This document shows positions 1 to 63,945 of a DNA stretch of 64,000 bases, in pieces (positions within the stretch are counted from its first letter, which is position 1; every line of letters starts with the position of its first letter). The position numbers and the translations under genes are program-made. The stretch covers positions 16,097,024-16,161,023 of the forward strand of contig OY987231.1 in assembly GCA_963920705.1 (NCBI GenBank). The letters are read 5' to 3'. Below the pieces are notes generated by a model. That model was not told the origin of the DNA and searched no databases. It worked only from the letters and a program-made list of their open reading frames with translations. The DNA is from Odiellus spinosus (Eukaryota > Arthropoda > Arachnida > Opiliones > Phalangiidae).

Positions 1-1879
1 TATATATGTACAATTTATTTCGAAGCCAAAAAAATAAACGGTGTTAGAAATTTCCCGAGGCTTCGAATCAGATGAAAAAAATAAGGATAAAAAAATGTTT
101 AAGCAGTTGTTAAATGGTAAAAAAATGCAAGGGCAGAAAGCTAATAAGTGGAAATGATGTAGGACTAGGCATTCGTTGGCCGCCATGCACCGTTTATGTC
201 TCGCTCTATCCCCTTTAAATCAGTCGATGATGTGCGTGTCACCTTCCATTTCCATCCGAAACGCGGGCATTAGAAAAAATGTTATTGCGAATTTAGTTTT
301 ATATCTAGTTTATTAAATAGCATTCATGGTCTGTCCCAGCATTTGGAGGAATATGTTCAACTGTGGCTCGTTTCACTGTTTGATCGGTGAAAGCTTGTAG
401 CAGAATATTTAAATGTCTTCGTTAATTTTTCTTACGTTAATTATAAGCACATTTGTGATAGATTTCAGAGTAATAATAAGCCTTGGTAAGTTAATCTACA
501 CTTGTACGAGAACGGTTTTCGGTTGTAGGTTGTTACGAACATGGGGATTCATTGCTTGGAGTTGGGTTTTATTGCTCCTAGGTGGAATGCAAGTACATGT
601 AAAGACATATTGGGTTTTATATCCTCATGAAAATTTAAGGGGTAAAGTTAAAAACTGAAACACCCTTAATTGATTTTCTCCCAATGGAAAGATTTTGAAC
701 TGAAGCGCCCTTATTGGCTAGTTCCCGTCATTAGTAAGGCCCTGGTTTTCCAAGGGCTAGGGAATCAAATGGGAATAAACACTTTCAAGAACGAATGGAA
801 GCCCTTTAGATATCCTCGCGTACTTCATCGTAAAATGGCGTCTGCTTATTGATTAGTCATATTTCACCACGATCAACTGAAATCTTTGGAGATGCGTTGC
901 CAATAAATAAGCGGACGCCATTTTTCTACATCACGCCGACTGAACTAATCATGTTCAAGGTTCTTAGGGCCGTCTTCAATTCATTTTACACATAGTTTTT
1001 CATAGCCATATCATCTGAAGTAATTCATTGTGCGTACAGTCCATTTTACTTTCTTGGATATACAGCGCGCCACCTTGTTTAAAAAAATCTTTTCGGGTTC
1101 AAGAAAGACGGAGACGCTTATCGCGCCCTTAAACATCGCGTTTTTGGTAAAGAGATATTAAGAATTGAATAAAAAATTCGTCTCCAACCACAATTATACG
1201 GTGTATAAGTGTATATAGTTAAAATTAGGGTTTACGACAAGGCGAAAGGAAGCCCGACGATAAGTATAGCGGCACCCCGCCCGCTAATGACTTTGAGAAG
1301 TCTACCCTCAAAGATGATTACTTTTAACGCCATATCTTGAGAGCCAGACCTCCACCTGCCGATTTGTCGCCCGAATCGACAGTTTTTGGTCACCATCATT
1401 TTAGAAAAACCAATTCCTATCATTTTGTTGCGTGGTGCGTGATTATACAAGTTTTTAGATCTTCAAAACAAGTTGGTTTTTCATCGAGTTAACTCTTATC
1501 ACAGTTATTTCGAATCGAATAATAAATACTCGGAAGACCGGAGTTTCATTATTTTTATCATGTTTTTCTTTAAATATAATTTCATACTAAAAGTATGTTT
1601 TTTTTTTGTTTTTATTCAAGGAACAATTGTATCTTATCTATAATACGAAGTTTGTTTGAAAGGCCTATATTTGGAAATCTTTATATTTTATCATATTTAT
1701 TTTAAATTTGTTGCTCAGAGCATTTGAATTCTCTCGTTTCTTATTGCCTAGAGCGCTTTGGTTTATCGCTCACGGTTACAAGAACTAGTAATAACTCGAT
1801 TTTAACGTAGAATATTGGGGGTAACTTTCTTTCTCGTATCAGTTCCCTGTTGTTTAATTGGTAATTTTTTACGCCTCAG
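1..1879 (+). other. Intron of the Iroquois gene (3' part)
   Basis: This stretch precedes the first recognisable exon and ends in a pyrimidine-containing acceptor (TTTTTTACGCCTCAG) whose AG is at 1878-1879. No homeobox motif was found by reading it, so the homeodomain exons are taken to lie upstream of the window. It is AT-rich. A short hairpin-forming repeat occurs at 832-924. Small open frames here (413-658, 670-852) show no protein-like composition. Confidence 0.6.
832..924. repeat. Short inverted repeat (hairpin, ~93 bp)
   Basis: The left arm AAAATGGCGTCTGCTTATTG is matched in reverse complement by the right arm ending GCGGACGCCATTTT, with one mismatch in the GGCGTC(T/C)GC core. The loop is about 45 bp. 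It is probably a miniature foldback element inside the intron. No clear target duplication is seen. Confidence 0.5.
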
Positions 1880-2850
1880 GCTCAAATATGAAGCAAGAAG
1901 AAGATCTGTCACGAGATTCCTCGGACTACAAGTTGCACCATCCTCATCGAGGAGGAGTGGGAAGAACCAGTAGTCCGGACAACTCGTCCAGCTCGGCGGA
2001 TTGCGTCAACCCGTTATCGACCCCGCTGGCATCGCACAACCTTCATCTGCAACAACAGAATATCTTGTTGAGAGGCGGTTTGCCGCACGGTCACCACGTC
2101 ACTCCTCCGTCCGGGCTCAATCTTTCGGCATCGCGTAATTCGGCCTTCGTATTGGCTTCGGGAGGAGGGGGCGTCCACGGTCATTTGGGCGCCCTCGCCG
2201 CTATGAGAGACTCCCCGACTTCGGATAACAACAGGCCGAAAATATGGTCCTTAGCTCACACGGCTACTTCGGACAGTCCGCCACCGGTTCGTAGAAGTCC
2301 GGTGGTTCATCAGAACCCAGTACCCGCGATCCCGAGTGGTATAAATCGTCAGGAGTATCGGGACCCCAAGTACATTAAGTCGGAAATGGACGGTGATATG
2401 TATTGCGGGCGAGGCAACTTGGGCAACCAGGGGCCGGGCGCCGTAGGACTGTACAGGGTGGCCGGCGAGCACGAGGTCAAACCAATGGGACATTACGAAG
2501 ACCATTACGCCATGAACGGGGTGACGAGCGCGAAAAACTGGATGAATGGGACGATGGGGCACGTAGTTAAAAACTGTTCGGCGCCTTCGTCGACGTCGCC
2601 GGTCGGAACGGCGTCCGCTTTTGACCCCGCGAACTCGGCGGGTGACGGCCAGTCCAAAGATCCCCGTTTGACGCCGGGAAGCGATAGCTGCAGCGGCGGT
2701 AGCGGTAGCGGTTCCGATTCGAACCCGCCTTTATTCCACCGCTCGCCTCGCGGTTCGGAAGAAGGAAACCGGGCTTCGCAGCCTTACTGTGATATTACGT
2801 CTCCTCACGGCATGGGAGCGTCCGCCATGGCTTACGACCTACAGCACGAA
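1880..2850 (+). CDS. Iroquois-class homeobox protein, large C-terminal exon (partial gene)
   Basis: Iroquois (IRX; ara/caup/mirr in flies) proteins are TALE-class homeodomain transcription factors that pattern eye, wing, notum and other fields in the nucleus. The key motif is PKIWSLAHTATSDSPPP, encoded at 2236-2286; the PKIWSLA(E/D/H)TATS block just C-terminal of the acidic region is a hallmark of the family. The rest is low-complexity Ser/Pro/Gly/His sequence, normal for these proteins: SPDNSSSSAD near the start, a GGGG run, a GSGSGSDSN stretch and DPRLTPGSD. The exon opens after an AG at 1879 in the middle of a codon (nGC), so the first in-frame Met (1888) is internal and not a start. It closes on a whole codon before a consensus GTAAGT donor at 2851. 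GC content is much higher than in the surroundings, as expected for coding DNA here. The homeobox lies outside the window, so mirror and araucan/caupolican cannot be told apart. Confidence 0.88.
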
Positions 2851-2928
2851 GTAAGTGTTCGAGACGCGATCGGGAACCATACTTCGATAACGAGACACTA
2901 ACGCTGGTATCCCCAATTTCGCCCACAG
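2851..2928 (+). other. 78-bp phase-0 intron of the Iroquois gene
   Basis: It has donor GTAAGT at 2851, a branch-point-like ACTAAC at 2897-2902 about 27 bases before the acceptor, and acceptor CCCACAG ending at 2928. Splicing joins two complete codons. The length is a multiple of three, but an in-frame TAA at 2899-2901 would stop translation if the intron were retained. That stop lies inside the branch-point motif. Confidence 0.8.
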
Positions 2929-48050: not shown

Positions 48051-50539
48051 AATAACTAAAATTCAAGGATTATGGAGTTAAGAATGCATATTTGCGCTTA
48101 GATGTGTAAAGAAAATCTTCTCAACGAATGGCTCAGTAACAGGGAACGAAGGAGACTTGAAAGTTCAAACTATTTGAATCAGCCAAATCATAATAAATGG
48201 TTGTAAAACCCAAAATGTTTTCAAAATACAGGTAAGATACATTTCATTCATGGGCCACTAATTTAAAAATAATGTGAATTATTAACTTGTTCAACCGCGT
48301 GGTTCTTAGGGAGTGGTCCCTAAACTTGGTTCGCGACGGGACAGAGAAGCCCGTAAAGGCACGCGGCCCTATTATACATGGCCCGTGTACCGCGGGAAAG
48401 AGGACTTATTGCGAAAAGATGTTCAATGACATTATAATGGGAAATGAGGAACTGCCTTAAACGTCGAACGACGCCGCCAACCCTGGGACGTTTTAACGTC
48501 GCGTAGCCGGCCTCGCGCGTGTGTTTTCTTCCCGAGAGCCTATTTGCGGAGAAAGGGGCCACGTGGCGCGCTGTGTCTACTACTTCGTTAGTGCCGGACG
48601 CGTCACCGCCACTTTTTAATATCCGAGAGAGCATTGTGACAATGTATTACGATCGTGGGAAAGACTGCTTGCGAAAACACGAAAGGAGGGGAAACCAGTA
48701 CTTCACATTGGAAACTTATTGAAAATAATATGTGGCGGAGTCATACCCGATGTTAAACTCGCGAGAAATAAAAGTAGTGATAATATTATTCTACTATACA
48801 ACCGTCGATATATAATCGAAGGTTGCGCGAGAATCTGTTTTGTGTCGCCGACCAGATAATACAAGAAGACTGTTTCGTGCCACGAAGTAGGCGGAATTAA
48901 TCCCCAATACAGATTATATTTTTCAAAATACGGGAAATACAGGATGGGGGTTTGGGTTTTACGTCTCGTTAACGAGGTTCCGATTTACAAAAGGATGAGA
49001 GTATCGCGAGTGCGTCCTGTAGCGCAAGATTTTACTTCCGTTATTTAATTTTCCCCCAATTTTCAGTGTTATTGGTTGTAAACTAGTGTTGGTTAAACAG
49101 CATTGATTTTACATAATATCAAACAACATACACATAATTCAAAGTATATCGTCTCAAGTACCTCTTGCTCTTTTCCAATATAAATCCTAGCAACCAATTG
49201 GGTAGCGGGAAAATATTTTCACTAAGCGATTAATTGAAGAGAAGAGTTTTTTTACTTTAAAAGGGATACGACTAGATCAGATTAGATCAATTATAGTTGT
49301 TAATCTGAATTCGCCCCAAAGATATACATGTCAAAATACTGCGAGTTTTAAGCTTGTTTTTACTACTTATTGTGTGTTTATTCGGATCAAAAGGAGTTAG
49401 AATTTATTCAAATATCATATTATGTCAGATAATTATGAATCAGATGGGATTTGGATTAAATTAAATAAATTTCAGGTCAGATTGAACCGGAGATGGTTTC
49501 CGTCAATAAATATTTGTTTTAAACATCTGATATTTCTGATCCAAAATACCCTAATCACTTTACCATCGTTGATATTCGTCAGAAATGCAATACAAAATAT
49601 AAAATTGATCTTCATTTTAGTTAATTTGGGTCTGTATAGCAAATTAGTAAAGTAACAAAATTGCAAAAAAAGGTAAGAACATAAAGAACCTTTGAATAAA
49701 TTGTAATTCCGTTATTTACTAGGTATTCGTGTTATTACACAGCTAAGAGGGAAAAATTAATGACAATATTTATGAAATTCCCATGACAATATAAATGAAA
49801 CGAGTTGGAAGTAATCTCATTTAATATTGAAAAAGTTTTAATCACGATTATATTTTGTACGCATTTTTTCCCCGGATGATTTCGCTGGAACTCGGAATGT
49901 AATCAGCCTTTTCTATTGTTGCCGTATATTATTACAATTTAGATTGTATATAGCGTGCAACGAGTTGCCTATCGGGAACGACTATGTGACGGGGGGGAGG
50001 GATGGAATGAAAGGGGGGTTTACTGTTTATTTAAGGGATTAAGGGGCCCGGGACGTCGTATATAAAGTCTCGCGGAAAAGGATTTTAATATTCCGATGGG
50101 GCAAAACGCTCTTTCCATCAATAAACCGAGAAACTTCGCTCCCCGAAAACTTTTACGCGCCAGATTACAAATCCCTCGCGCGACCGACAGACCAATTTCC
50201 CAGCTCATTCAATGTTCTTGTCAAAAGCGAGGCCCATTTTAACGTGACTATGCTAAAGGAATCGCCAATACAAAGTTGCGCTTTTATTAAAACGAACAAG
50301 ACGTCGCGACTAGAGCGAGAGAGAAAACCTTTCCGCAAAGGAAAACGAGTTTTCAAATTAATTTATCTATGATCCAATGTTCAAAAGAATATATCATGAA
50401 TAACAGTGACCCCCATCGCTCTCTTACAAAGTTTCCCTGATTTTTCCAGGTTTTACCAGAGATTTTCCCTGATATTTCAAGATGTACTAAAGGTTTTAAA
50501 AAAAACCCTAGTTAAAACTATGAATTTTGCTGATTAAGG
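48051..50539. other. Non-coding with GC-rich islands
   Basis: Islands at 48290-48720 and 49970-50340 have high CpG (for example CGCGTAGCCGGCCTCGCGCG at 48500) and are non-repetitive. Short frames on both strands show no domain. These are candidate regulatory elements. Confidence 0.35.
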
Positions 50540-52831: not shown

Positions 52832-54761
52832 AAAGAAACCACAAGAACTATAATCATCGTAAGTTCACTCGTGAATAGGAATAAATTATGACATGGTCTT
52901 TTCATTGTTTTGTTAGTGAAATAATAGTTCATCATATGTATCTTCTTAAACTCTTAAAAATCACTTAATTGAAAGAAAAATTCAATTCAAATATAAGTTT
53001 TAAACTTAGTAGTGAAAGTTTGTACAACTACAAACCATGATGGTAAGTTTGCTTGGCTGGAGATAAATTTTCATATGGTTTATTTAATTTGCTTACTATT
53101 TCAACTATACCCGTTTACAATACCTTCTCGAAGATAACTCAAATTCCTCAGAAAATGTAACAGTCGGTAAGACTTTACAGTGAAAGCAACTTTTGGGGGA
53201 AACAGCTCGATAAAACGAGAACAAGGTCTTCTCGTATATATTTTTCTATTGGACATTAGATTTCGTGATGAAGCCTAATTTATAAATTTTGCGGAGCTTA
53301 AGCGCTATAAAAATATATTGCCTTTTAAACTCACGTCCCTCAAAATGGCAAATCCGGGAGCTTACGCGTATTTTGATATAATTTCTTATCAAGTAAAAGA
53401 ATCTCCCCATCGTAAAACCCGATATCGAGCAATACGATTTCAGTGTCAGTTTCGTTTCTATCCGCGACGTTGATCAGACAGTTATTCGAGCGTCAAATAT
53501 TGGCGGTGTGCCAAATTGGCCGACTTTCTCGATGGAGCAAAAACACCCTAGGCCGCGTTTCAAGCTGGCCAGTTTTGAAGAAAGAAATAAACCCCGCATC
53601 GCGCCTGACACAATGAAATGGGAACTATCGAATCCCGGGCGTGAATCGAACAATGAATATCTCGGCGCTAGCCTTTTCAAGTCCATTTTATCGCGAGATC
53701 CCCGGCCGCCCAGGGGAAGTTAACGTTATACCATATAAAGCAAAAGCTTACCTGAAATTCGGAATACAGGATTATCTCCTACCGTATCATTACTCCATTA
53801 TGCGCATTAAGTTGAGCTTGTTTCCCTGTAGGAGAACCGCAGGATAAGTTTGGAGTACGAGGATCAGTTCTCTGACGCTTAAAGTTCACACGCAAGCTAA
53901 TTTCAACCGACTTTATAATTAAAATGAGCGATTTAAAGTGATACCCAACCAGGACATAAGCATGGATACAAAGGCCTAAATGCCACAGTGCGCGCGGAAC
54001 CAGCGCGACCCCTAGTGACTTCAATTTGAGCAGAAGGGAACACTTTTGTTCCTGGTTTCATTATCACTTTAACTTTAAAACTCTGACCTTGATATCTCAT
54101 TTAATCTTATCCTGATAAATAGTGGAATTAAGTACACCTTATTTAATTCCAAGGTTGCTATCAAATTAGGGCAGTGTCTCACTTTAAAAATAGTATAAAC
54201 CTTTTGGCTGTGTTGATTCCTAATGTAGTTGTGCCGACTTTAGAAACAGCTATAGTTTCAAACTTTCCTAAAAGCGGGAATCGGAAATGATTCAAATGTT
54301 GAAAGCAGGTGCGTGCGATTCTAAACTCTTCCAAACGATTGAATTACTTTTGTAGGTAAAAAAGGGGTTACATTTAAAATGTCTTTTGCTTCCGGTGTTA
54401 AATTAAAATTCGGATTCAACACGTAGATGTTCAAATTTAACGCTATGTGGAACTACCACTCCTGTTTAGCGTATAGTTTCAAACTTTCAAAGGACGGAGC
54501 TATAACACAATGACGATTTCATACAATCGTGACGTCACTAGTTTTAATCATCTTGAGCAAGTGTGTAAGAGACTAAATCACTGAGCAGGATTGAACCAAA
54601 TTGATATTTCCAATACCTTGACTTATATGGGTTTTCCTTGAACATTTCACTTGACCATTATTAATCATTTTCCCTGACCAAATGGCATTTCTCTATAGGT
54701 AAACCCAATTTCCCATAATTTTAAAGGTTTTTCCCGATCTGTGGCTACCACCATTCTGGGG
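52832..54761. other. Non-coding, GC-richer at 53.45-54.03 kb
   Basis: No gene recognised. The GC-richer segment has several short open frames on both strands, none with a recognisable domain. Confidence 0.35.
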
Positions 54762-54823
54762 GTAGTATTCGAGGGGCTAACCACTTCCCTAAAATCTGTA
54801 CACCGATTATGTGATTACGGAAA

Positions 54824-57800
54824 TGCATTTTCGAAAAACCAAATAAGCGAAAATGAAATTGAGTTTTTCGCGGATTTTCAAAATGTCAAAAATAAAGTTT
54901 CTAATCTGGAACTTTTTTCGGTGGCTTTCGATCGCTTTTGGGTCCTATTTCCATTAAAGCGAGTTCAGACCAGTTCGTTAATTAGTTTTGTCAAAATAAA
55001 ATATTTAAAATCCAGATTTGCCATGTAAAATCCCCATAGAGCGTGGATAATATATTATTTTTTAAAATTTAATTGATTTTGACCTGGTTTCTGCTTCGTA
55101 ATTAGTTACGTTAATTATAATTATATAGTTTAAACGTCTTTTAACGAGAAAAAACCCGATTAAAATCAACCAAATATTCCAAATAATACCTTATTGGCGC
55201 CCTATGGAGATTAAGCATGGCTAATCTGGATTTTAAATATTTTATTTAAACAAAACTGATTAACGGATTGGTTTCAACTCGCTTTAATGGAAATAGGACC
55301 CCAAAATGAACAGAAATCCATCAAAAAAAGTTCCAGATTCGAAACTTTATTTTTGCTCATTTTCGAAAAACCAAAAAAGGGAAAATGAAAATTTGAGTTT
55401 TTCGCCGATTTCCAAAATGTCAAAAATAAAGTTTCGAATCTGGAACTTTTTTCGGTGGCTTTCGATCGCTTTTGGGGTCCTATTTCCATTAAAGCGAGCT
55501 CAGACCAGTTCGTTAATTAGTTTAGTCAAAATAAAATATTTAAAATCCATATTCGCCATGTAAAATCCCGATAGAGCGTGGATAATATATTATTTTTTAG
55601 AATTTAATTGATTCTGACCTGGTTTCTGCATCGTAATTAGTTACGTTAATTATAATTATATAGTTTAAATGTCTTTTAACGAGAAAAACCCGATTAAAAT
55701 CAACCAAATACTCCAAATAATGTATTATTGGCGCCCTATGGAGATTAAGCATGGCGAAATATGATCTAAAATATTTTATTTAAACAAAACTGATTAACGG
55801 ATTGGTCTCAACTCGCTTTAATGGAAATAGGACCCCGACATGAACAGAAATCCATCAAAAAAAGTTCCAGATTCGAAACTTTATTTTTGCTCATTTTCCA
55901 AAAACCAAAAAAGGGAAAATGAAAATTTGAGTTTTTCGCCGATTTCCAAAATGTCAAAAATAAAGTTTCGAATCTGGAACTTTTTTCGGTGGCTTTCGAT
56001 CGCTTTTGGGTTCCTATTTCCATTAAAGCGAGTTCAGACCAGTTCGTTAATTAGTTTTGTCAAAATAAAATATTTAAAATCCAGATTTGCCATGTAAAAT
56101 CCCCATAGAGCGTGGATAATATATTATTTTTTAAAATTTAATTGATTCTGACCTGGTTTCTGCTTCGTAATTAGTTACGTTAATTATAATTATATAGTTT
56201 AAATGTCTTTTAACGAGAAAAAACCCGATTAAAATCAACCAAATACTCCAAATAATGTATTATTGGCGCCCTATGGAGATAAAGCATGGCGAAATATGAT
56301 CTAAAATATTTTATTTAAACAAAAGTGATTAACGGATTGGTCTCAACTCGCTTTAATGGAAATAGGACCCAGACATGAACAGAAATCCATCAAAAAAAGT
56401 TCCAGATTCGAAACTTTATTTTTGCTCATTTTCCAAAAACCAAAAAAGGGAAAATGAAAATTTGAGTTTTTCGCCGATTTCCAAAATGTCAAAAATAAAG
56501 TTTCGAATCTGGAACTTTTTTCGGTGGCTTTCGATCGCTTTTGGGGTCCTATTTCCATTAAAGCGAGTTCAGACCAGTTCGTTAATTAGTTTTGTCAAAA
56601 TAAAATATTTAAAATCCAGATTTGCCATGTAAAATCCCCATAGAGCGTGGATAATATATTATTTTTTAAAATTTAATTGATTTTGACCTGGTTTCTGCTT
56701 CGTAATTAGTTACGTTAATTATAATTATATAGTTTAAACGTCTTTTAACGAGAAAAAACCCGATTAAAATCAACCAAATATTCCAAATAATACCTTATTG
56801 GCGCCCTATGGAGATTAAGCATGGCTAATCTGGATTTTAAATATTTTATTTAAACAAAACTGATTAACGGATTGGTTTCAACTCGCTTTAATGGAAATAG
56901 GACCCCAAAATGAACAGAAATCCATCAAAAAAAGTTCCAGATTCGAAACTTTATTTTTGCTCATTTTCGAAAAACCAAAAAAGGGAAAATGAAAATTTGA
57001 GTTTTTCGCCGATTTCCAAAATGTCAAAAATAAAGTTTCGAATCTGGAACTTTTTTCGGTGGCTTTCGATCGCTTTTGGGGTCCTATTTCCATTAAAGCG
57101 AGCTCAGACCAGTTCGTTAATTAGTTTTGTCAAAATAAAATATTTAAAATCCATATTCGCCATGTAAAATCCCGATAGAGCGTGGATAATATATTATTTT
57201 TTAGAATTTAACTGATTCTGACCTGGTTTCTGCTTCGTAATTAGTTACGTTAATTATAATTATATAGTTTAAATGTCTTTTAACGAGAAAAAACCCGATT
57301 AAAATCAACCAAATACTCCAAATAATGTATTATTGGCGCCCTATGGAGATAAAGCATGGCGAAATATGATCTAAAATATTTTATTTAAACAAAAGTGATT
57401 AACGGATTGGTCTCAACTCGCTTTAATGGAAATAGGACCCCAAAATGAACAGAAATCCATCAAAAAAAGTTCCAGATTCGAAACTTTATTTTTGCTCATT
57501 TTCGAAAAACCAAAAAAGGGAAAATGAAAATTTGAGTTTTTCGCCGATTTCCAAAATGTCAAAAATAAAGTTTCGAATCTGGAACTTTTTTCGGTGGCTT
57601 TCGATCGCTTTTGGGGTCCTATTTCCATTAAAGCGAGTTCAGACCAGTTCGTTAATTAGTTTTGTCAAAATAAAATATTTAAAATCCAGATTTGCCATGT
57701 AAAATCCCCATAGAGCGTGGATAATATATTATTTTTTAAAATTTAATTGATTTTGACCTGGTTTCTGCTTCGTAATTAGTTACGTTAATTATAATTATAT

Positions 57801-60659
57801 AGTTTAAACGTCTTTTAACGAGAAAAAACCCGATTAAAATCAACCAAATATTCTAAATAATACCTTATTGGCGCCCTATGGAGATTAAGCATGGCTAATC
57901 TGGATTTTAAATATTTTATTTAAACAAATCTGATTAACGGATTGGTTTCAACTCGCTTTAATGGAAATAGGACCCCAAAATGAACAGAAATCCATCAAAA
58001 AAAGTTCCAGATTCGAAACTTTATTTTTGCTCATTTTCGAAAAACCTAAAAAGGGAAAATGAAAATTTGAGTTTTTCGCCGATTTCCAAAATGTCAAAAA
58101 TAAAGTTTCGAATCTGGAACTTTTTTCGGTGGCTTTCGATCGCTTTTGGGGTCCTATTTCCATTAAAGCGAGCTCAGACCAGTTCGTTAATTAGTTTTGT
58201 CAAAATAAAATATTTAAAATCCAGATTTGCCATGTAAAATCCCCATAGAGCGTGGATAATATATTATTTTTTAAAATTTAATTGATTTTGACCTGGTTTC
58301 TGCTTCGTAATTAGTTACGTTAATTATAATTATATAGTTTAAACGTCTTTTAACGAGAAAAAACCCGATTAAAATCAACCAAATATTCTAAATAATACCT
58401 TATTGGCGCCCTATGGAGATTAAGCATGGCTAATCTGGATTTTAAATATTTTATTTAAACAAATCTGATTAACGGATTGGTTTCAACTCGCTTTAATGGA
58501 AATAGGACCCCAAAATGAACAGAAATCCATCAAAAAAAGTTCCAGATTCGAAACTTTATTTTTGCTCATTTTCGAAAAACCAAAAAAGGGAAAATGAAAA
58601 TTTGAGTTTTTCGCCGATTTCCAAAATGTCAAAAATAAAGTTTCGAATCTGGAACTTTTTTCGGTGGCTTTCGATCGCTTTTGGGGTCCTATTTCCATTA
58701 AAGCGAGCTCAGACCAGTTCGTTAATTAGTTTTGTCAAAATAAAATATTTAAAATCCAGATTTGCCATGTAAAATCCCCATAGAGCGTGGATAATATATT
58801 ATTTTTTAAAATTTAATTGATTTTGACCTGGTTTCTGCTTCGTAATTAGTTACGTTAATTATAATTATATAGTTTAAACGTCTTTTAACGAGAAAAAACC
58901 CGATTAAAATCAACCAAATATTCTAAATAATACCTTATTGGCGCCCTATGGAGATTAAGCATGGCTAATCTGGATTTTAAATATTTTATTTAAACAAATC
59001 TGATTAACGGATTGGTTTCAACTCGCTTTAATGGAAATAGGACCCCAAAATGAACAGAAATCCATCAAAAAAAGTTCCAGATTCGAAACTTTATTTTTGC
59101 TCATTTTCGAAAAACCAAAAAAGGGAAAATGAAAATTTGAGTTTTTCGCCGATTTCCAAAATGTCAAAAATAAAGTTTCGAATCTGGAACTTTTTTCGGT
59201 GGCTTTCGATCGCTTTTGGGGTCCTATTTCCATTAAAGCGAGCTCAGACCAGTTCGTTAATTAGTTTTGTCAAAATAAAATATTTAAAATCCAGATTTGC
59301 CATGTAAAATCCCCATAGAGCGTGGATAATATATTATTTTTTAAAATTTAATTGATTTTGACCTGGTTTCTGCTTCGTAATTAGTTACGTTAATTATAAT
59401 TATATAGTTTAAACGTCTTTTAACGAGAAAAAACCCGATTAAAATCAACCAAATACTCCAAATAATGTATTATTGGCGCCCTATGGAGATTAAGCAGGGC
59501 GAAATATGATCTAAAATATTTTATTTAAACAAAACTGATTAACGGATTGGTTTCAACTCGCTTTAATGGAAATAGGACCCCAAAATGAACAGAAATCCAT
59601 CAAAAAAAGTTCCAGATTCGAAACTTTATTTTTGCTCATTTTCGAAAAACCAAAAAAGGGAAAATGAAAATTTGAGTTTTTCGCCGATTTCCAAAATGTC
59701 AAAAATAAAGTTTCGAATCTGGAACTTTTTTCGGTGGCTTTCGATCGCTTTTGGGGTCCTATTTCCATTAAAGCGAGCTCAGACCAGTTCGTTAATTAGT
59801 TTTGTCAAAATAAAATATTTAAAATCCATATTCGCCATGTAAAATCCCGATAGAGAGTGGATAATATATTATTTTTTAGAATTTAATTGATTCTGACCTG
59901 GTTTCTGCTTCGTAATTAGTTACGTTAATTATAATTATATAGTTTAAATGTCTTTTAACGAGAAAAAACCGATTAAAATCAACCAAATACTCCAAATAAT
60001 GTATTATTGGCGCCCTATGGAGATTAAGCAGGGCGAAATATGATCTAAAATATTTTATTTAAACAAAACTGATTAACGGATTGGTCTCAACTCGCTTTAA
60101 TGGAAATAGGACCCCGACATGAACAGAAATCCATCAAAAAAAGTTCCAGATTCGAAACTTTATTTTTGCTCATTTTCCAAAAACCAAAAAAGGGAAAATG
60201 AAAATTTGAGTTTTTCGCCGATTTCCAAAATGTCAAAAATAAAGTTTCGAATCTGGAACTTTTTTCGGTGGCTTTCGATCGCTTTTGGGGTCCTATTTCC
60301 ATTAAAGCGAGTTCAGACCAGTTCGTTAATTAGTTTTGTCAAAATAAAATATTTAAAATCCAGATTTGCCATGTAAAATCCCCATAGAGCGTGGATAATA
60401 TATTATTTTTTAGAATATAATTGATTTTGACCTGGTTTCTGCTTCGTAATTAGTTACGCTAATTATAATTATATAGTTTAAACGTCTTTTAACGAGAAAA
60501 AACCCGATTAAAATCAACCAAATATTAGAAATAATACCTTATTGGCGCCCTATGGCGAAATATGATCTAAAATATTTTATTTAAACAAAACTGATTAACG
60601 GATTGGTTTCAACTCGCTTTAATGGAAATAGGACCCCAAAATGAACAGAAATCCATCAA
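54824..60659 (+). repeat. 535-bp tandem satellite, ~11 copies, each a foldback
   Basis: The motif ATGAACAGAAATCCATC recurs at 55306, 55840, 56375, 56910, 57445, 57980, 58515, 59050, 59585, 60119 and about 60641: steps of 534-535 bases, the last about 522 because of a deletion. Within a unit, for example 58405-58790, the left arm (GGCGCCCTATGG ... TCCAGATTCGAAACTTTATT) is the reverse complement of the right arm (AATAAAGTTTCGAATCTGGA ... CCATAGAGCG). The centre is near 58595, and a ~149-bp AT-rich spacer follows. Units are highly similar and fall in two sequence subtypes. The 71- and 85-codon frames that recur on both strands come from the two arms and are not genes. Confidence 0.96.
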
Positions 60660-60960
60660 TCTGAGTCAGATTGCGTGTCTATTTTGACCGATAGTGCTAG
60701 TCGGACTCCAATTGGAACTGATGAAAAACCCGTGTCAGCCTCACTTTAAAGGAATTAATCGAAAATTAGCATTTTGACTCAATTAAAAAGGCGTATTTGG
60801 TTAAGCCCAAAAAGAGCTTCAAATGAGAACAATTATATCAAAATCGTTGTTTCAATTTGTTTCAGCTTTTCAAATTTAATTATTCCAGCTCCTCTTATTA
60901 GTAATTATACGTTTTATTTTGTAATTCTGTAATGATTTCTTTGGTAGTACTAAATGCTTA
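60660..60960. other. Unique segment between array and right terminal repeat
   Basis: It begins abruptly where the last array copy is cut. It contains GTGTCAGCCTCAC followed by TTTAA at 60732-60748, the end sequence of MITE family F on the minus strand, so a family F relic may have ended the array. Confidence 0.5.
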
Positions 60961-61010
60961 GTAATCACTACAGGCGTGTACACCGATTACGAGGAGTGGC
61001 CAGCCCCTCG

Positions 61011-62114
61011 GCCGTATCTTACTTTCGGGTCAACTTGTAATATATTTTGCACCCTAAATTGTTGCGTGTGATCTTTAAAGCCACTCTTGAATAATTTGCA
61101 GTTACCATGTTAGATTGTCGTCTTCTCGGGGGTTTGTTGCCAAAGGGGCAAACACGGGTGTTCGAGAGAGTGTCAGTCAGCTTCACGGCTGTCCATCAAA
61201 CGATATTAACCTACAAAGGAACAAATCGGGTTCTTTTAAATATCGCCGTCAAAGAAATAACATCGGCAAGACATCTTGGAATAATATAATAAAATTCGCC
61301 GCTCCCGTAAATAATCCAGGCTGGCTAGAATTATAAATATTTTCCGGGAAAATGTTTCTAACAAAGAGTGTGACAAAAAATTTGATGTAGGATTACGAAT
61401 CTACAATACAGAGCTGAAAGGGAGGTGGGAAGAAAAATAATAAACCCCGCGCAGATTCGGCAAAGGCCTTAAAAATTATACTTACAATTTACATTTAGGC
61501 ACTATTATTCTGACATATCAAGAAATCGCAAGATAAAAAACCGTAACCGACCTCTAATTTCACTAAACTGTACCATTACACGGACTAAAATCTAAAACAA
61601 ATGTCAGAAAATTAATTGTTTCACGAACACGACTACACGAGAACCTAGGCCCCAGAATGGATGTTCGCGAACTTTGCCATCTTCGTTTCTGTCCTCTACT
61701 CCCTCTATCTTCCCCACTGATATATGCATGGAAATAAGCTACCGAAAATGGCGCTACCTTCTAATCTAGATATAGACAGACTAATAAAGACCTGGGAGGT
61801 TCAGGAAAAATATTTAAAAATCTCCAACCAAAAATAAAAACGTGTTTGAAAGTTTTAAAATTTTCATCCTAAAATCGGATTTGCGCTGCCTTTGTTTTCC
61901 CAATAATAATATAAATAGTACTATTCCAGAATGTCTTAGAATATGCTTTCTCGAATAGGGAGTGAAAAAAGCGACAATTTCTACGTCACTAGCATCCTCA
62001 GTTCAGTTCAGTCTAGGAGCCACAGAAACAAAACAAAAAATTTCTGCTATTCTAATTCTATCATTGCCATTTTGAGGGAACTTGTAGATAGACGGTCTTG
62101 GTTATTTAGGTAAA
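61011..62114. other. Non-coding
   Basis: Two overlapping short plus frames at 61107-61336 have mixed composition without a recognisable domain. Nothing else seen. Confidence 0.35.
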
Positions 62115-62912: not shown

Positions 62913-63814
62913 GTAAGTGTTATTGATAGAGAGTATTGATTCTAGTACGCAAGCTGTCATTCACAGTACAAATTCTAGGACTCAAACGCTATTTAGAACA
63001 ATTGTTTGAACTGGAATTCGTAGAGTTAAATTTATGTTGAACGTGTGATTGGTTTGTTACGGCAAAAGTGTAAAATTTTGTGATCGACCCTTCTTTTGCA
63101 AAACTTTTGCACGGCGCTTCAGAATTGGAAAAAGAAAAAATTCCACCGATTGATAAAATATTAACTGTTGCTTGAAGGCTAATTAATCTAATGTCCCCGG
63201 TGATTCCAATTTCATGAATAAATGAATGCTAACCTGTACCCAGGGTTTTTTGGACCGTAGAACTCGGATTTTCAATTTAGAAGATCCGTTCAGTAGTTTC
63301 GGAGATATGGATTGTCACTTTAGGAGATTTGACTTTGACCCCCAACAGTAACCTCTGTTTTTCTCAGCTACTAATTGAGATAAAAACACTCAAAGGGTCT
63401 CATTTTAAAGGTAATGGGGAGCTCTTTTCGAAAAAAGATTTAGTTTTAAACTGTCTCTAAATTAACAATGAAAAATATTGATTTTTAACACTTTACCTTT
63501 GACCTTGAAAATAGCTTATCATCGATTTTCAAAATTATATTTCTCTGGGAATTTTCTGCCCACGGTTTATTAGTATACCAAAAATTGCGAGGGTAAAATT
63601 TTTCGTTTTCGAGATAAAATATGTTTTTCAACCCCCAGTGCAACAAAACATAAAATGAAAAAATGTATATTATTTAATTCATTTTGAACAAAAAGATGGA
63701 ATATCCTTATTCAACCTTTAGGCTATCCTCATATATTCCCTTCCCTATACGTTAATAAAACTGATCTTAATTAAAGGATATGAATAGATTTACCTCCAAG
63801 GCTCCAAATAATAC
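62913..63814. other. Non-coding, possibly the decayed rest of the THAP pseudogene
   Basis: Short protein-like snippets up to about 63180 may belong to the same relic, but no frame is long enough to judge. Beyond that, AT-rich sequence without features. Confidence 0.3.
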
Positions 63815-63945
63815 TATTGGGATTTTACATAGCGAATCTGGATTTTAAATATTTTATTTTAACAAACTGGTTAACGGATTGTTCTCAACTTGCCATAATG
63901 GAAACAGTATCCCCAAAAGCAATCGAAATTCCCCCAAAATGGTTA
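63815..63945 (+). repeat. Diverged single arm of the 535-bp satellite unit
   Basis: CCAAATAATACTATTGGGA, then GCGAATCTGGATTTTAAATA, TTAACGGATTGTTCTCAACT and AATGGAAACAGTATCCCC follow the order of the unit's left arm, with about 15-20% differences and one ~25-base deletion. It lies 3.2 kb outside the array and outside the proposed right terminal repeat. Confidence 0.85.

Follow-up and report, generated by a model that had tools for sequence, protein, structure and literature searches.

How did about eleven tandem copies of a repeat that folds back on itself come to stand at one locus of the Odiellus spinosus genome, and is the repeat itself a mobile element or something that mobile elements carry? 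The locus lies in a stretch of 64,000 nucleotides, referred to here as the window. An earlier note, made from the letters alone, had described it as a satellite of 535-bp units, each a large foldback, and had suggested that a foldback MITE became tandemly amplified.

The window array and its unit

The number and length of units proposed in that note agree with our count (Table 1). Neighbouring units run head-to-tail with anchors 534 or 535 bp apart, the 10 in-register units are 95-100% identical in pairwise comparison, and autocorrelation peaks at 535 (0.83), 1070, 1605 and 2140. Tandem Repeats Finder, for which the longest period is 500, returned no rows for the window.

The array was also said to read almost the same from both strands, and this is borne out. 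The window unit matches its reverse complement at ~78% identity (0.54-0.58 in 10 mononucleotide shuffles), the doubled consensus has a local score of 917 against its reverse complement (maximum 36 across 20 mononucleotide shuffles), and nearly the entire array can be aligned to its opposite strand, at ~75%. The inverted-arm signal within units, whose absence had been named as the result that would speak against a foldback, is therefore present both as self-complementarity and as pairs of arms. Ungapped arms of 415 nt are 77-78% complementary and lie 119-120 nt apart in neighbouring units (25 of 97 pairs listed), which is close to the 386-bp inverted repeat and 149-bp spacer described before. 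The spacer, however, is itself weakly symmetric, so that each period has two dyad centres, at consensus ~237-248 and ~504, and the 535-bp unit is described more accurately as an inverted dimer than as an inverted repeat with a spacer. Dyad identity is flat, with per-array means of 0.75-0.82 in 32 arrays and 0.68-0.85 in single units. In some arrays (C2:1553654 onward) an arm-2 site occurs on both strands in a 217/316-bp alternation, which hints at local homogenisation.

Table 1. Positions in the window (position 1 is its first letter) and T-framed arrays grouped by target duplication
Feature	Position	Strand	Remarks
Tandem array	54824..60659	+	10.9 units of 534-535 bp; consensus ~475 to ~441
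Example unit, dyad centre 1 to dyad centre 1	58330..58864	+	Dyad centre 2 near 58597
Left arm, conserved inverted core at dyad 2 (helix 5), example unit	58487..58572	+	Mean column identity 0.952 (30 arrays)
Right arm, conserved inverted core at dyad 2, example unit	58623..58707	+	Mean column identity 0.959
Right flank R	60660..60937	+	278 bp; full-length match at one other place
Isolated unit fragment	63814..63939	-	126 bp; 82% identical to unit (80% on + strand)
C-like piece	50418-50472		About 4 kb left of array; E down to 4e-7
C-like piece	54604-54681		E 0.003-0.03
T-like piece	61780-61873		73%
T arrays with 8/8 duplication			L029, L032, L030/L054, L039/L040, L043/L050, L052/L053
T array with 7/8 duplication			L038/L049
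T arrays without matching duplication			L041/L042 (1/8), L044/L051 (4/8)

Dispersed arrays and their probable carriers

A genome-wide search placed the repeat in short arrays scattered over many chromosomes of the 443-Mb assembly and far apart (among the matches listed), not only in the long pericentromeric arrays that the earlier note had set against its own reading. The long homogeneous heterochromatic blocks of a classical pericentromeric satellite were not found among the matches listed for this assembly, where such blocks may be collapsed or missing. The assembly has TTAGG runs at an end of one contig, and its mitochondrial contig carries COX1 (by Pfam) and frames recognisable as ND2 and COX2. 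A 35-mer from the unit has 2403 matches with at most 3 mismatches and its reversed control none; the genome copy number of the unit is hundreds or more. Units are homogenised within arrays: for 124 full-length units in 32 arrays, identity averages 97.3% within arrays vs 89.4% between them. These loci were not a random sample, being picked from the best matches and by nearness to the first carrier, which we call T.

T has the ends GGGGAGATTTCCGTTAACC and GGTTATCGGAAACCTTGCC, or else GGGGAGATTTCC at each of its two ends in inverted order. Such terminal inverted repeats flank nine arrays for which both outer ends were read, and an 8-bp target duplication is perfect in six of these; mismatched pairings of T flanks never exceeded 5 of 8 (0/72). 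The seven arrays with 8/8 or 7/8 duplications range in length from 2144 to 11654 bp. T copies stand in inverted orientation at the array ends in 8/9 arrays, and in the same direction in L039/L040. A 430-bp stretch, B, can lie between array and T. All or part of B is there on both sides in four arrays (L038, L043/L050, L044/L051, L052/L053), on one side in four and on neither in one. The symmetric T arrays are foldbacks of the order T - B' - array - B - T', in which very long inverted repeats make up most of the element; L039/L040 does not have this form. L029 consists of T arms and an array that runs from one dyad-1 centre to another. The array-B-T joints recur (L028, L030, L032, L038, L039, L043, L044).

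T also occurs alone, as a MITE of ~375-380 bp with a sequence distinct from that of the 535-bp unit; among eight solo candidates, the 8-bp duplication is perfect in L060 and 7/8 in L057. Derivation of the unit from T was considered and rejected: the two have a collinear stretch around CATG.TAAATCCC.ATAG, and this similarity is not significant because, in the best of 20 comparisons, 4/100 dinucleotide shuffles scored as high.

A second carrier family, C, makes target duplications of 5 bp, so that each carrier has a duplication of fixed length. C-type ends (at most 3 mismatches) flank four arrays on both sides, with a 5/5 duplication in three of them (L014, L023/L033, L025) and none in L016, where one end is degenerate; these duplications are short and AT-rich, and every mismatched pairing reaches 3 of 5. 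The C piece to the left of the L017 array has TAATT at either border, in keeping with a nested insertion. Helitrons and Helentrons are not known to leave target duplications or to have inverted ends. Arrays carried in that way were rejected for the framed loci, which have both.

The two carriers follow the relationships of the units. In a tree of 32 array consensi (7 labelled T, 9 labelled C and 16 unlabelled) the labels need one change each for T and C, and 0/500 shuffles were as low. L013, an unlabelled array, groups with the C-side clade, yet T pieces lie within 1.3 kb on its left; a T label there would add one change. The window array is sister to L009 (100/99), an array that adjoins C on the same contig 2.6 Mb away, and lies within a clade of 12 rows, 8 of them C and none T. 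Its right flank R matches the right flank of L009 (C7:18735699-18735972) at 92%, with 40 of 69 candidates scored.

Beside the window array itself there are no T, B or C ends, and no T or C end motif with at most 3 substitutions occurs in the whole 64-kb window, which holds the C-like and T-like pieces of Table 1. The array is best read as an unframed relative. It belongs to the C-side clade, and we propose that recognisable ends were lost from it or were never there. Other unframed arrays exist: L018-L021, L027, L035 and L036 have no T, B or C piece in the flanks read, and L011, L022 and L024 have only short ones. A 50-bp inverted match (E 0.010) was considered as a frame of the window array and rejected, as it overlaps a dispersed 43-bp motif (29/40 rows listed). 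A 5-bp repeat, AAATG, was seen by eye at the left edge of the array and just past R, and may be chance.

Origin and spread of the arrays

We think it likely that the unit is an inverted dimer of old origin and that its tandem arrays are carried as cargo by non-autonomous DNA transposons, T and C. A single head-to-head duplication, preceding the spread of the arrays, would have given rise to the unit; T frames one set of arrays and C goes with the other clade, transposase presumably being supplied in trans, and array length may have changed by unequal exchange or replication slippage. This would make the repeat a well-resolved case of a satellite spread through cut-and-paste transposons, with one repeat in two carrier families, and elements alike in their ends and target duplications, 2.1-11.7 kb long and holding from ~2 to at most ~20 units, would be array growth caught inside a mobile element. 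Speaking against this reading are the T and C pairs that lack a duplication, the shortness and AT-richness of the C duplications, the T pieces near L013, the direct T parts of L039/L040, the missing frames of the window array and several others, and the selective choice of loci.

The suggestion of a tandemly amplified foldback MITE holds in part: the repeat is dispersed, its arrays lie inside TIR transposons with duplications, and some of these are foldbacks, but the data do not support the 535-bp unit itself being a MITE. That the unit itself is such an element, with T and C as bystander MITEs inserted near the arrays, we consider unlikely. Its inverted-dimer form and the apparently nested C piece at L017 agree with this, and chance T neighbours are possible because a search with 97 bp of T and 62 bp of array gave 1588 first-look candidates (40 scored, 65 matches). 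Against bystanders stand the duplications at the outer ends of structures that enclose the whole array, 6/9 of them perfect, and the recurrent array-B-T joints. Single-unit copies with target duplications were not seen at L045-L048, a small sample of four loci with a single exact match, which hold rearranged or diverged copies of ~1-3 units without T or C end motifs; a fifth locus chosen for this reason, L044, proved to be one end of an array framed by T. An ordinary satellite that spread without transposing, through segmental duplication, recombination or the reinsertion of circles, would fit the window array and L009, with array and 278 bp of flank in common on one contig, and the several arrays without a frame on the flanks read. 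It is rather improbable in view of the target duplications at the carrier ends of framed arrays, the wide separation of arrays on many contigs (among the matches listed) and the carrier labels that follow the unit tree.

Since the unit is palindromic, selection on the dyad symmetry of a satellite can be tested here. The predicted fold of one unit as single-stranded DNA has -147.3 kcal/mol in one register (-49.4 +/- 3.8 in 100 dinucleotide shuffles; z -25.6) and -145.6 kcal/mol in the other (-50.3 +/- 4.6; z -20.7). The 85-bp arms at dyad 2 are conserved (0.95-0.96) above most of the unit, with 98.1% of cells paired in helix 5 and 47/79 pairs invariant. This strong fold and paired core are what a palindrome retained for function, as a hairpin RNA, cruciform or small-RNA precursor, would lead one to expect. 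Compensatory change in the arms, however, was not seen among 30 units, one per array: 5 pairs had both sides changed vs 7.0 +/- 1.9 in shuffles (455/500 at or above the observed value), and 92.1% of cells were paired in both observed and shuffled arms, giving no pairing excess. Maintenance of pairing by compensatory change or arm-to-arm conversion was therefore rejected for this sample, and retention for function seems very improbable. The covariation test thus gives no support for selection on dyad symmetry, yet the sequence of the core is conserved. As a speculative addition to the cargo explanation, the dyad-2 core might be a putative multiplied, strand-symmetric platform that binds transposase or a host protein. 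If so, the cargo would be useful to its carriers, which would explain both why two transposon families have the same array and why conservation peaks in the core despite pairing without compensatory change.

Related systems

This route of making and spreading a satellite is already known, and the new twist is that several short arrays of a near-palindromic unit are transposon cargo. Among open-licence PMC papers, 6 contain one of five strings taken from the end motifs and the unit, and to judge by title and start of abstract none of the 6 concerns transposons or satellites. A search of open-licence PMC papers for satellites in two transposon families, with terms that were perhaps too narrow, found none.

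The closest precedent in the sources cited is Tetris of Drosophila virilis, with the TIR-220 satellite and the MITE DAIBAM (PMC4079207). As described there, Tetris is likewise a non-autonomous foldback with 8-10-bp duplications and internal tandem repeats grown to kb arrays, and a short MITE has the same ends (DAIBAM there, solo T here). Its ~220-bp repeats lie within each TIR, where a 37-bp stretch links TIR to repeat, whereas here a 535-bp inverted dimer lies mid-element and bears no significant similarity to T, and other arrays go with a second carrier family. Galileo, of the P superfamily in Drosophila, has long TIRs, a foldback look and, in some copies, 2-3 internal tandem repeats of ~210 bp; it differs in its 7-bp duplications, transposase-coding relatives and few repeats, and the sections cited describe no inverted-dimer satellite (PMC3573991). 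In Xenopus, Xstir and miDNA4 are tandem arrays inside or derived from MITEs, and for miDNA4 it was proposed that a MITE captured a tandem repeat that already existed (reviewed in PMC12628747 and PMC9659126); these are other elements in other hosts, and the passages cited mention neither a palindromic unit nor two carriers.

Dyad-symmetric organisation is known from the macro-dyad satellites of Tribolium madens, where, according to the portion cited, a ~110-bp element lies in multi-megabase, probably pericentromeric regions with dyads of tens of kb (PMC13081366), in contrast to the half-unit dyads and short dispersed arrays here. For Crassostrea gigas, the text cited describes satDNA-like arrays that are short and are spread by a mobile element (PMC7492417), the carrier being a Helentron there and an element with inverted ends and target duplications here.

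Inverted structure of the 535-bp unit

An earlier note had described a 535-bp satellite, each unit an inverted repeat of about 386 bp plus a spacer of about 149 bp. The tandem satellite is borne out: both the sequence reading and autocorrelation give this period, with 534 or 535 bp from one unit anchor to the next. Pairwise identity among ten in-register units is 95-100%. The identity table separates the units into two or more types, which match at about 95-96% and are intermixed along the array. TRF, whose longest period was 500, did not list it. The unit consensus aligns to its own reverse complement over its full length (overall 78% vs 54-58% in ten shuffles) with two dyad centres per period (see table), the arms being better at dyad 2 and identity lower around dyad 1. 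Without gaps, the recurrent arms are 415 nt long and 119-120 nt separate neighbours; the predicted single-stranded DNA fold is about -146 kcal/mol in either register, far below shuffles. Because of the self-match, the two dyads, the recurrent arms and the fold, each unit is an inverted dimer. The proposed inverted arms thus stand, but the "spacer" is the lower-identity part around dyad 1, and the strands, said to read nearly the same, are alike at a level of about 75%.

One unit from each of thirty arrays was aligned. Conservation over long stretches is highest in the 85-bp arms around dyad 2 (0.952 and 0.959); the remaining long stretches have 0.83-0.90, and a piece of five columns has 0.94. 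On the boldest, rather unlikely reading these arms would be a protein-binding core. In them, 98.1% of cells pair. Paired changes across the alignment, however, show no excess over shuffles (5 pairs vs 7.0 +/- 1.9; 92.1% of cells paired in both observed and shuffled data), and so the data show conserved sequence rather than selected pairing.

Positions of the features discussed (C1-C7, contigs)
Feature	Reference	Position	Remarks
Window	C7	16097024-16161023	assembly 443 Mb, 286 contigs
Array	window	54824-60659	period 535 bp
Open frame	window	1858-2901	347 aa, Ser/Gly/His-rich
C-like motifs	window	54604-54681	weak
Piece related to ~43-bp motif	window	54767-54809	inverted order
~43-bp motif	window	60968-61011	TGTACACCGATTACGAGGAGTGGCCAGCCCCTCGG...
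T-like fragment	window	61780-61873	69-73%, both orientations, ~1.1 kb right of array
Dyad 1	unit consensus	~237-248	
Dyad 2	unit consensus	~504	
Largest T element with duplication	C7	13840482-13852135	11654 bp
Array, arm-2 site exact on both strands alternately	C2	1553654-1556037	35-mer search
Array, arm-2 site exact on both strands alternately	C1	33339377-33340264	35-mer search
Array with other spacings	C4	14038645-14043550	537-544, one 1089, vs 535 bp

Two transposon families as probable carriers

Flank comparisons revealed likeness between the flanks of different arrays. One array subfamily is bounded by T, a sequence that starts GGGGAGATTTCCGTTAACC and is probably a non-autonomous DNA transposon. 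Nine T-framed arrays had both outer ends read, some through the ends alone. Their 8-bp flanks are identical in six (GACTGTAG, GATTTTTG, AATCTTTA, GTTAGGAT, GGGTCAGC, TATAATTT), match at 7/8 in one (GTACAAAA/GTACAAAC) and are unmatched in two (1/8 and 4/8); 72 mismatched flank pairings, used as a control, reach at most 5/8. T is inverted at the two array ends in 8/9; in L039/L040 both parts are direct, so that this array looks as if it lay inside one T. A further stretch, B (430 bp when whole), joins the array at consensus 309 and separates it from T on both sides in four of the nine, on one side in four and on neither in L029; on one side of L038 and L052/L053 it is only 23 bp. L029, 2307 bp long and holding about 4 units, is a foldback in the order T, array (dyad 1 to dyad 1), inverted T. 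The seven T elements with 8/8 or 7/8 duplications range from L043/L050 (2144 bp, about 2.3 units) to one with 10.7 kb between array edges (see table), in which 16 units among the matches listed and about 1.6 kb uncovered would put the unit number at up to about 20. T also occurs without an array: among eight solo candidates the duplication is perfect in L060 and 7/8 in L057, and a scripted scan found none at the T ends of L055, L056 and L058. The T ends of L059, L061 and L062 adjoin a 30-bp minisatellite (..GTGTGTCAATAGGGACCCATAA..) and have the flank GCCCATAA in common.

The other subfamily adjoins a second family, C, with ends CAGGGTTGCCACAG / CTGTGGCAACCCTG. Counted at up to 3 mismatches, C-type ends lie on both sides of four arrays. 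Duplications of 5 bp occur at C ends in L014 (CTATA), L025 (TTATG) and L023 (ATATT, left end in L033); none occurs in L016, where the right end is degenerate. C-type sequence joins the array at consensus 187-189 in six arrays (L009, L010, L015, L016, L017 and L023, the last with its end motif partly missing at the joint). Since pieces of B lie to the right of L010, L015 and L017, B seems to be older than the split. C may have entered a T element, or there may have been a separate capture.

The nearest precedent is Tetris with the MITE DAIBAM (PMC4079207): Tetris is a foldback with 8-10-bp duplications and internal repeats grown to a satellite, and DAIBAM, a short MITE, shares its ends. Excerpts on Galileo (PMC3573991), Xstir and miDNA4 (PMC12628747, PMC9659126) and the dyad satellites of Tribolium madens (PMC13081366) each share parts of the picture. 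Compared with all of these as there described, a palindromic unit in mid-element and two carrier families are found here alone.

Distribution and history of the arrays

Two genome searches, each with a unit from a different array, gave at least 549 and at least 496 matches; among the best ~150 of each, short arrays lie on contigs C1-C8 and C11-C15. For a 35-mer taken from one arm, the genome gives 1201 forward and 1202 reverse matches at up to 3 mismatches, and none for the reversed control. The alternating exact sites in two arrays, on C2 and C1 (see table), suggest that the two arms of these arrays were made alike. TTAGG runs lie close to the C1 end among the matches listed. Of 13 COX1 matches, 9 are on contig C17, contain stops under the standard code and probably represent mitochondrial DNA copied into the nucleus. 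C286 seems to be the mitochondrial contig. The frames beside COX1 on the COX1-bearing contig we take to be ND2 and COX2.

In a tree of 32 array consensuses, with carrier labels that we set from flank and end readings (16 rows unlabelled), the T rows (7) and the C rows (9) need one change each, and none of 500 shuffles was as low. All 7 T rows fall in a clade of 11 rows that has no C row; a second clade, of 12 rows, has 8/9 C rows and no T row, the remaining C row, L025, lying outside both. A counter-case is the unlabelled L013, on the C side of the tree yet with pieces of T to the left of its array, as far out as 1.3 kb. Unit identity (124 units) is 97.3% within arrays vs 89.4% between them. 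Because the labels divide the tree and identity is higher within arrays, arrays appear to travel with their carriers and to homogenise locally.

The window copy and its flanks

The window array is sister to L009 (support 100/99), which lies on the same contig at a distance of 2.6 Mb, and the two have 278 bp of right flank in common at 92%. Among the 40 scored of 69 candidates this flank matches at full length only at L009; nine further sites give short matches to part of it (~28-99). The whole window has no T or C end motif, and there is no B beside the array; we read the array as having lost, or left, its carrier. The 347-aa frame matched nothing in Pfam (E up to 0.1) or among solved structures (E up to 1). 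The ~43-bp motif is dispersed, and fills 29/40 rows among the right-flank matches listed.
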